Source of the DNA: a virus
Strand: one strand, 5' to 3'
DNA length: 20,267 bases
Virus record (IMG/VR): IMGVR_UViG_3300025102_000381
Location: 1 to 20,267 of that record
The position numbers and the translations under genes were made by a program. Below, piece after piece: positions 12,653-19,105 of the stretch (the stretch's first letter is position 1; the number at the start of each line of letters is the position of its first letter). The notes under the pieces are model-generated. The model was not told where the DNA came from and did not search any database. It saw only the letters and a program-made list of their open reading frames with translations.

Positions 12653-13252
12653 ATGAAAGTTAGAGATGCACTACAGATTACAGGAAGCTTGAGTAAACCT
12701 TCCAAGATGCCAGGATGGGCCTACGGTCTACCAGCTAAAGAATGCAAAACAGGCGGCAAGTTACAAAAAGTTCCAGGCTCTGTCTGTTACGATTGTTATG
12801 CCCTGAAGGGCTGCTATGTTTTTAAAGTTGTGCAGCAAGCACAATACAAACGTTTAGAAGCCATCCAAAACCCATTATGGACAGGGGCTATGGCTATTAT
12901 AATTAATTCTAAGAAATCAAAATTTTTCAGGTGGCACGATTCCGGCGATGTGCAGGACGAAGCTCACCTGATGAAGATCTTCGCCGTGTGTAAACTCACA
13001 CCTTCTGTGAAGCATTGGATGCCGACGCGCGAGGCGTGGGTGAAAGCCTTCCTCGTGATGAAGCCTGATAATCTTGTAATAAGATTTTCAGCTCCGATGA
13101 TTGATCAGCCGGCCCCTGCGAGCTGGCCGCATACTTCAACTGTTGTAAAAACTGGTCCATCTTGTCCAGCCCCTCAACAGGGAAACGAATGCGGAGATTG
13201 TAGGGCCTGCTGGGATCCTGCCGTTAAGAATGTAGCCTATGGCCAACACTAA
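12653..13252 (+). CDS. Gp88-like cysteine-rich protein
   Basis: 199 aa. MPGWAYGLPAKECKTGGKL (19-37) is followed by CYDCYALKGCY (Cys45, 48, 54), FRWHDSGDV (92-100), HWMPTREAW (121-129), and a C-terminal Cys cluster GPSCPAPQQGNECGDCRACW (168-187; Cys171, 180, 183, 186) ending NVAYGQH. The MPG-x-x-Y-x-LPA opening, CYA motif, RWHDSGD and terminal CGxCRxCW are what I recall of the phage 'gene product 88' family, common in mycobacteriophages and environmental phages, function unknown. The Cys pattern suggests a metal or Fe-S site; that is inference. AAAGGAGAT precedes the ATG. It is an isolated plus-strand gene bracketed by heptamer arrays, which could reflect a moved cassette. Confidence 0.8.
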   Translation: MKVRDALQITGSLSKPSKMPGWAYGLPAKECKTGGKLQKVPGSVCYDCYALKGCYVFKVVQQAQYKRLEAIQNPLWTGAMAIIINSKKSKFFRWHDSGDVQDEAHLMKIFAVCKLTPSVKHWMPTREAWVKAFLVMKPDNLVIRFSAPMIDQPAPASWPHTSTVVKTGPSCPAPQQGNECGDCRACWDPAVKNVAYGQH

Positions 13253-17853: not shown

Positions 17854-17971
17854 CTTTATTTACAGGTTTTAGATTCATCAACATAGCCATCAAAGCGTAT
17901 ACTTCTGCATACGGTCTTCTTGCCATATAATCGATAAGATCTTTTCTTTGTTCTGGTGTTAGTTCTAACAT
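17822..17971 (-). CDS. Small helical protein (49 aa), unknown function
   Basis: 49 aa. LELTPEQRKDLIDYMARRPY, then AEVYALMAMLMNLKPV form two helices; the rest is lysine/aspartate-rich. The ATG overlaps the stop of the RHH-like regulator (TAATG), so it is likely translated with it and might be its partner, for example as an antitoxin/toxin-like or repressor/anti-repressor pair; that is speculation from position alone. Confidence 0.6.
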   Translation of the reverse strand: MLELTPEQRKDLIDYMARRPYAEVYALMAMLMNLKPVNKDDVKSKKDLS

Positions 17972-18150
17972 TAGTCTTTCTCCTTCTTAATCTTACCATT
18001 TAATTTTTTTAACTCAAGGTTGGTAAGAACCTCAATTGTTTTACTAATAGATAATGTCGCTCCATCCACTTTAACTTTTGATATCTTAATCAAATTGTTA
18101 TAAACAGAATGTGGTAAAGACACGTTTCTATATTTTGTTATATCAGTCAT
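17971..18150 (-). CDS. Ribbon-helix-helix-like transcriptional regulator (59 aa)
   Basis: 59 aa. TKYRNVSLPHSVYNNLIKIS gives the short basic beta strand (RNVSLP) followed by helix A; KVKVDGATLSISKTIEVLTN gives the turn and helix B. Strand, helix, LSISKTI turn and helix match the RHH/CopG/Arc layout, and the length is typical. AAGGAAAGAA precedes the ATG. It is the first gene after a near-consensus promoter whose spacer holds ATAGGATA, so autoregulation is plausible. The fold call is by pattern, not alignment. Confidence 0.62.
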   Translation of the reverse strand: MTDITKYRNVSLPHSVYNNLIKISKVKVDGATLSISKTIEVLTNLELKKLNGKIKKEKD

Positions 18151-18173: not shown

Positions 18174-18203
18174 ATTATATAGGATAGTCAAAGGAGATGT
18201 CAA
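18174..18203 (-). promoter_or_regulatory. Near-consensus early promoter TTGACA-18-TATAAT
   Basis: Minus strand TTGACA (18203-18198) and TATAAT (18179-18174), 18 bp apart; the sequence TATCCTATATAAT places an ATAGGATA-type site right at the -10. It reads into the long overlapping operon 18150 to 15030. Its -35 overlaps the region just before the GTG of the divergent gene at 18204. Confidence 0.8.
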
Positions 18204-18416: not shown

Positions 18417-18644
18417 TTATTGTGGGACGTTATCAGAGCACACATATCCGATAACTTGTTTACCATCATACTCGTGATAATAAAGACTACTAAACATTTT
18501 TCTCTTTTTTCTTTCGTGCACTTTTACATTGTGTGTATACCAAGACTCACAACTTACTTTTGAGGGTATTTCAAAACTGTGTTGTTTAATATCGCCCATC
18601 GGCGTTAGATATAACAGAGTTATCATTGTTATTTTTTCAAACAT
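18417..18644 (-). CDS. Small two-Cys phage protein (75 aa)
   Basis: 75 aa. MITLLYLTPMGDIKQHSFEI is the hydrophobic opening, SKVSCESWYTHNVKVHERKK holds the middle Cys32, and VIGYVCSDNVPQ the terminal Y-x-Cys. It follows a ~250-nt structured leader-like region with a good promoter, so it may be translated from that transcript. Only a weak GAGAAAG lies before the ATG. Function unknown. Confidence 0.6.
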   Translation of the reverse strand: MFEKITMITLLYLTPMGDIKQHSFEIPSKVSCESWYTHNVKVHERKKRKMFSSLYYHEYDGKQVIGYVCSDNVPQ

Positions 18645-18669
18645 TTTAGTTTTATATCTTTCTCAAAAC

Positions 18670-18898
18670 TATTCTGCCAGAGATTTTTTTGGCCTGTCGA
18701 TTTCTCAACAGGTGCTCTACGCTTGCAAACGCAGAGACTGCTCTGGATCACCCTAGGTTCTGCCACCGATCCAACTATCCAGTTGAAAAGGATACTAGAA
18801 TGAACCGCTCTTGGTGTCCTCGGGTATTAACCCATAATTCACCAAGTTTGTGCCTTACCCCTCGGTGGCCCGAGAGTTTTTCAGCCACAGAATAGCGT
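18670..18898 (-). ncRNA. Candidate structured RNA (about 230 nt) with pairing ends
   Basis: Read on the minus strand. Ends: CTATTCTG (18895-18888) pairs perfectly with CAGAATAG (18677-18670). Inside: CTCTCGG-GCCA-CCGAGGG hairpin whose loop can also pair with upstream GTGGC; CTTGGTG/CACCAAG (7 bp) enclosing GGGT-TAAT-ACCC; TATCC/GGATA; GGATCG/TGATCC; CTCTGCGTT-TGCA-AGCGTAGAG; and CCTGTTGA-GAAA-TCGACAGG, an 8-bp stem with a GNRA loop. The region is GC-richer than its neighbours, has no credible ORF, and a TTGACA-17-TATATA promoter ends about seven bases before its 5' end. I see no RNase P, tmRNA or tRNA signature. It could be an independent RNA or a cis-regulatory leader of the gene ending at 18417. 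Confidence 0.62.
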
Positions 18899-18904
18899 AA
18901 GGAA

Positions 18905-18933
18905 TATATAGGATATTATAAGATAGATGTCAA
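18905..18933 (-). promoter_or_regulatory. Promoter TTGACA-17-TATATA for the candidate RNA
   Basis: Minus strand TTGACA (18933-18928), 17 bp, TATATA (18910-18905). TATCCTAT overlaps spacer and -10. It shares TTGACATCT and TATCCTATATA with the promoter at 18174-18203, so the two look co-regulated. Confidence 0.78.
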
Positions 18934-18961: not shown

Positions 18962-19105
18962 TTAACGACCTTGACCTTTGTACAACTTAAACGTGCGTCT
19001 TTTATATTTGTTCATTTTTTGTAGACTGGGTCTACGTCCAATCGAAGTTTTATGATGTATGGGTTCGTGTACGGCTTTGTTTAAAAAATTACCTTTCTTA
19101 GCCAT
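18962..19105 (-). CDS. Small basic protein (47 aa)
   Basis: 47 aa (MAKKGNFLNKAVHEPIHHKT, then SIGRRPSLQKMNKYKRRTFK and LYKGQGR). The KTSIGRxxxxxxxNKxKRRxFKxYxGQGR motif recurs in small marine phage proteins (recalled). Basic, probably nucleic-acid-binding, but this is inference. The start lies eight bases inside the zinc-ribbon gene. It is the last gene of the lysis-type cluster before the RNA promoter. Confidence 0.65.
   Translation of the reverse strand: MAKKGNFLNKAVHEPIHHKTSIGRRPSLQKMNKYKRRTFKLYKGQGR

Follow-up and report, generated by a model that had tools for sequence, protein, structure and literature searches.

The closest described system is manA (Rfam RF01745), an RNA of T4-like cyanophages and marine metagenomes which was put forward as a candidate riboswitch (Weinberg 2010, PMC2864571). 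It is graded 'Y' as cis-regulatory and 'y' as a riboswitch in that study, and a possible pseudoknot was already remarked in 2010. The Rfam structure of manA was corrected in 2020 in the Rfam 14 paper (PMC7779021), with a CaCoFold structure containing 48 significantly covarying base pairs; the structure of manA is therefore not claimed as new here.

The window, the whole stretch of 20,267 nucleotides that was analysed, belongs to a marine viral contig related to 023Pt_psg01, HTVC027P and HTVC023P (TerL identity of 74%, 74% and 61% respectively), the last two being Pelagibacter phages. On its minus strand a real RNA gene was found, folded, non-protein-coding and with its own promoter. With a probability of roughly 0.6, it is a member of a manA-like superfamily of structured RNA genes, virus-encoded, mobile and standing alone, and acts in trans and not as a switch for the neighbouring 75-aa gene. 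The features of the locus, all on the minus strand, are as follows.

18669..18898: predicted structured RNA of about 230 nt, manA-like, subtype H
18905..18933: sigma-70-type promoter (TTGACA 18928-18933, 17-nt spacer, TATATA 18905-18910)
18905-18914: operator-like motif ATCCTATATA, inside the promoter of the RNA
18888..18895: P1 5' strand CUAUUCUG, pairing perfectly with 18669-18676
18669..18676: P1 3' strand CAGAAUAG, abutting P5 with zero linker
18876..18887: conserved UGGCNGAANAAC box, including P2 5' GCU 18883-18885
18850..18858: conserved GUAANGCAC box, including P2 3' GGC 18852-18854
18859..18876: P2.1 hairpin CUCUCGG / CCGAGGG, its loop GCCA 18866-18869 being the 5' side of PK1
18762..18767: PK1 3' strand GGUGGC, partner of the P2.1 loop
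18810..18846: P3 (CUUGGUG 18840-18846 / CACCAAG 18810-18816), with P3.1 hairpin 18822-18833
18756..18806: P4 domain (GGUUC 18802-18806 / GAACC 18756-18760)
18776-18794: P4.1 hairpin, within the P4 domain
18771-18774 and 18689-18692: PK2, 5' side UUGG in the P4 domain, 3' side CCAA in the P5 region
18677..18746: P5 (CCAGAG 18741-18746 / CUCUGG 18677-18682)
18716-18737 and 18693-18712: P5a and P5b, extra hairpins inside P5, specific to the window subtype
18417..18644: 75-aa gene, downstream of the RNA; in RNA-free phages its translation is as a rule coupled to that of the 47-aa gene
18965..19105: 47-aa gene, on the upstream side of the inserted unit
17971..18150: 59-aa putative DNA-binding regulator gene, whose promoter (18176-18203) carries the ATCCTATATA motif

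Both the promoter and the perfect pairing of the first and last eight bases had been proposed in the earlier note and were confirmed. Its coordinates, 18670-18933, hold the RNA and take in the promoter as well, the predicted transcript running from about 18898 to the final P1 base at 18669. A pseudoknot of the GCCA loop had also been suggested; the loop and the pseudoknot stand, with covariation favouring the downstream UGGC at 18762-18765 as partner over the upstream GUGGC named there. The promoter score was equalled or beaten in 2.8% of random windows from the same contig. No terminator follows the RNA in the window, so that the 75-aa gene is probably co-transcribed.

The window copy was compared with Rfam 15 at the gathering threshold and at E≤5 and E≤10, and nothing relevant was found; a match to RT-6 at E=3.5 was rejected as chance. 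The comparison with IMES families recommended in the earlier note matched none of the Rfam covariance models for these, and neither ARAGORN nor Rfam reported a tRNA or tmRNA for the window RNA. The statement that the RNA belongs to no known class has to be revised all the same, for the Rfam search recommended there, fruitless with the window itself, gave matches for relatives: in permissive scans RF01745 matched exactly at the RNA in five out of seven relatives tested (E 1e-10 to 3e-5). The scores (L123 51.5 bits, L156 49.6, L186 44.1, L175 35.8 and L099 33.5) all lie below the RF01745 gathering cut-off of 55.2 bits. By the Rfam test the window copy is no member of manA, and it is accordingly treated as a related variant: a strongly diverged, elaborated cousin.

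The helix order of the RF01745 structure line, P1-P2-P2.1-P3-P4-P5 with P5 abutting P1, is like that of the window RNA. Both have P1, then UG, P2, a P3 domain and a P5 (5 bp in manA), both are phage-borne, and both have a promoter just 5' of the RNA; in classical manA of cultured cyanophages, TTGACA...TATAAT-like boxes stand immediately 5'. The boxes at P2 are similar, not identical: the window has UGAAAAAC and GUAAGGCAC where manA has UGAAUAA and UAA, or, taken at full length, UGGCNGAANAAC/GUAANGCAC against UGACUGAAUAA/UAAGGUG. The 5' hairpin that leads the helix order in manA and other types is absent from the window copy, whose P5 loop is, unlike that of manA, expanded by the two added hairpins; these are the peculiarities of its subtype. 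Nor does it adjoin a metabolic gene, as would be expected of a cis-regulatory manA in the 5' UTR of such genes. Of the features that define the extended manA-like family, the window has the N-N pairing between UGGCNGAANAAC and GUAANGCAC, the contiguity of P1 and P5, P3 and PK1. The copies in 023Pt_psg01 and HTVC008M, which are unannotated or labelled hypothetical protein, share its boxes, helices, pseudoknot and promoter type, but have the 5' hairpin, a short P5 loop and other genomic neighbours.

The first relative was found by a single-sequence nhmmer search before any pattern was in use, in an intergenic region of 023Pt_psg01 (E=0.0023) and on the opposite strand compared with the layout of the window. 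BLASTN of the RNA against phages had given one promoter-sized match, to the same phage, which nhmmer later extended. The short exact pattern GGTAAGGCACAAACTTGG had zero matches, and GTGGCNGAANAAC and GTAANGCACA are common to the two RNAs. A pattern derived from the window and this one pelagiphage was found in at least 119 stretches of viral contigs, against a chance expectation, by our own estimate, of a few. In 84,980 cellular species genomes the pattern scan matched 18 stretches, each with a low score and either coding, unstructured or due to chance, so that the family is viral as far as the pattern reaches. One candidate, L100, was dropped as a false positive with a coding match. The window RNA belongs to a virus-only family much larger than the databases show. 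At the representative level eight main types, A-H, and a few singletons can be told apart, with folds that are alike. Distribution is patchy, as none of 160 relative contigs selected by endolysin or TerL contains the RNA.

A sequence model trained without window-type sequences recovered the HTVC008M copy (E=6e-20) and the window RNA (E=3.9e-7) in 2.4 Mb, part of the latter score coming from the selecting motif, and features outside the motif were therefore scored separately. P2.1, P3 and a contiguous P5/P1 occurred all together in 24 out of 51 true members and in none of 17 motif-bearing chance sequences, and the three values of the window itself were jointly reached in 0.1% of motif-preserving shuffles. 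The sequence model trained on the new types did not recover classical manA.

The surroundings of the RNA differ between viruses. In 12 relatives without the RNA, the 47-aa and 75-aa genes overlap or abut, stop to start; it is precisely at this junction that the window has a promoter-RNA unit of about 320 bp. Sister phage L318 has the RNA with 91.6% identity over 308 bp, followed by a different, 65-aa gene. In L204 a 290-bp promoter-RNA unit, the closest copy known until then, is found between a helicase region and phrog_2378, with 257 of 290 positions identical over promoter and RNA and with unrelated flanks. The precise insertion in the window and the L204 unit in its unrelated flanks indicate that promoter and RNA move as a unit. 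Elsewhere the RNA lies 5' of gp32 (L103, L196, L118, HTVC008M and P-HM2), after gp23, regA, pstS or a ferredoxin gene, or before talC or purL. It is antisense to its neighbours in 023Pt and L158 and faces a convergent gene in P-TIM68, the downstream gene being on the opposite strand in all three, and it is located inside tRNA arrays in L093, L119, L163, L169, L179 and L199.

The main rival is the 2010 proposal for manA, by which the RNA would be a cis-regulatory leader or riboswitch, responding to a bound metabolite and governing the gene that follows, in this case the 75-aa gene. The grades given to manA in that study (PMC2864571) support this, and in the window a same-strand gene follows 27 nt downstream with no terminator between. 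Many members, namely the B type with phrog_2378 next and the neighbours of gp32, lie just 5' of a same-strand gene, as a leader would. Against a leader, the neighbours vary by lineage and share no common pathway, and some are on the opposite strand or are tRNAs. In every relative listed (the 12 above) the 75-aa gene stands without the RNA, and other genes follow the L318 and L204 copies, which makes the switch in front of the 75-aa gene, one of two options in the earlier note, unlikely. On balance the leader hypothesis is rather doubtful as a general account, although a cis-regulatory role may apply to some copies. The other option of the note, an RNA acting alone, is the better one, being favoured by the varied neighbours, the independent promoters and the antisense and tRNA-array copies.

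The layout of the RNA is cloverleaf-like, with P1, UG, a D-arm-like P2 bearing the GAA and UAA boxes, P3, P4 and P5. P2 is a three-pair arm that opens with GAA, P5 has 5 bp in most members and runs into P1 without linker, and the fold is closed by P1 and held by at least one pseudoknot. Measured against the generally known structure of class II tRNAs (Leu/Ser), the RNA resembles these in the UGGCNGAA box, the 2-nt joint before it, the zero linker after the closing stem and the extra arm, but has no anticodon loop, T-loop or CCA end, and a pseudoknotted hairpin takes the place of the D-loop. We infer a likeness to tRNA from the topology and the D-arm box only. Members in L154 and L111 likewise lie within or beside phage tRNA arrays, a group I intron is found near the L093 copy, and L117, L150, L175 and L183 contain a tmRNA or tmRNA-like match.

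The position of several members in tRNA arrays, the D-arm-like box and the compact, pseudoknotted core would also suit a ribozyme or an RNA processed along with tRNAs, for which cleavage or maturation, by itself or as a substrate of RNase P, is the function. This is improbable, as the RNA matches no Rfam ribozyme family and the conserved core has no recognisable cleavage site.

Structural support comes from compensatory changes, which the earlier note had named as the check to be made in homologues and which exist among the relatives in every main helix, the pseudoknot included. The N of the UGGCNGAANAAC box pairs with the N of the GUAANGCAC box in 120 out of 120 genuine family members, as GC (64), AU (27), UG (19), CG (5) or UA (5); this P2 pair was located via the motif and not via pairing. 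In an alignment of helix strands with 38 distinct rows, 93.4% of the cells were paired compared to 38-46% with the partners slid, and two-sided changes were found in 24 out of 29 pairs, including all five PK1 pairs across types; these values are upper bounds, because the positions of P1, P5 and PK1 were chosen partly by pairing. For PK1, GCCAC/GUGGC in the window corresponds to ACCAC/GUGGU in L128. Between the window and L204, which differ by 22 substitutions and a 1-nt indel, compensatory changes occur in P1 (C-G to U-A), P3 (G-C to A-U), P3.1 (GGGU:ACCC to GGCC:GGCU) and P5b, and no pair is broken. The indel excludes a conserved reading frame, and the claim of a structured, non-coding RNA in the earlier note is borne out. 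The window sequence folds at -85.4 kcal/mol (z = -2.92), with 2 of 200 dinucleotide shuffles folding equally well; this statistic is moderate by itself and decisive in combination with the homologues. That the stretch has no function and either folds by chance or is an artefact of antisense coding, as the z of only -2.9 and a 68-aa ORF on the other strand might suggest, is highly improbable, the chance fold being already refuted by the covariation, which is seen family-wide and between near-identical copies, and a conserved frame by the indel.

For the preferred reading, a mobile RNA gene acting in trans, the promoter offers a lead to regulation. The ATCCTATATA motif was found upstream of 13 RNAs and six small-regulator genes among the loci searched. 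In 2.4 Mb, the motif ATCCTATA(T/C/A)A of the window promoter occurs 54 times, 19 of these just 5' of a manA-like RNA or of a small gene of the 59-aa type, which suggests shared regulation of the two. Types A, C and H have dedicated promoters at constant spacing to the RNA; those of types B and D to G are weak or do not resemble sigma-70 promoters. The RNA would be transcribed early, as a molecule of about 230 nt, under an operator shared with a small phage regulator. A protein of the host or the phage may then be bound by this tRNA-shaped RNA, which would work in trans as a decoy or scaffold; the tRNA-processing or translation machinery would be the first suspect.

A wider reading, to be taken as tentative, is that of a superfamily of RNAs confined to viruses, tRNA-shaped, pseudoknotted and acting in trans, which includes the manA branch, is borne as mobile promoter-RNA units by phages of SAR11, cyanobacteria and other hosts, and would serve host take-over or counter-defence instead of metabolite sensing. 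If this is true, the 2010 label 'manA riboswitch' is wrong. With the present data, the range of an orphan RNA class of cyanophages grows to include phages of SAR11, an abundant group of marine bacteria, and many other viruses, and the evidence that it is a self-standing RNA gene makes its function directly testable. HTVC008M on Pelagibacter HTCC1062 offers a cultured model; literature searches gave no paper linking this phage to a noncoding RNA.

Several hypothetical proteins have been annotated over the RNA, at 4993-5163 of L286 (HTVC008M gp008) and as PHM1_121 of P-HM1, P-SSM4_169.1, PHM2_011/012 of P-HM2 and S-SSM5_127; these are probably spurious gene calls. The P-SSM7 copy has a hairpin plus U-run on its 3' side, which favours the stand-alone reading. 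In L307, L312 and L313, a terminator-like hairpin (GAGGGTG..TTGACACCCTC-T run) 5' of classical manA overlaps the -35 box of the RNA promoter.

The 59-aa protein family has the consensus MTD.TKYRN.SL...SISKTIE...KKLNGK; by eye the neighbour was taken for a ribbon-helix-helix repressor, but Pfam, PHROGs, a PDB sequence search and a fold search gave no confirmation. Across the window, L010, L021, L036 and L081, the 47-aa gene has two or more versions whose N-termini are unrelated, GNFLNK...TSIGRRPSLQKMNK and FGV(S/N)NY...KRTPKKRPG, and whose C-terminal ends are similar (..GQGR), a modular exchange at a tiny gene. Elsewhere in the window, a phage GroES-like co-chaperonin (Cpn10, Pfam PF00166, E 1.6e-9) is encoded at 1017-1475, and a GP88-family protein (PF17338) at 12653-13252 on the plus strand, opposite to most genes.
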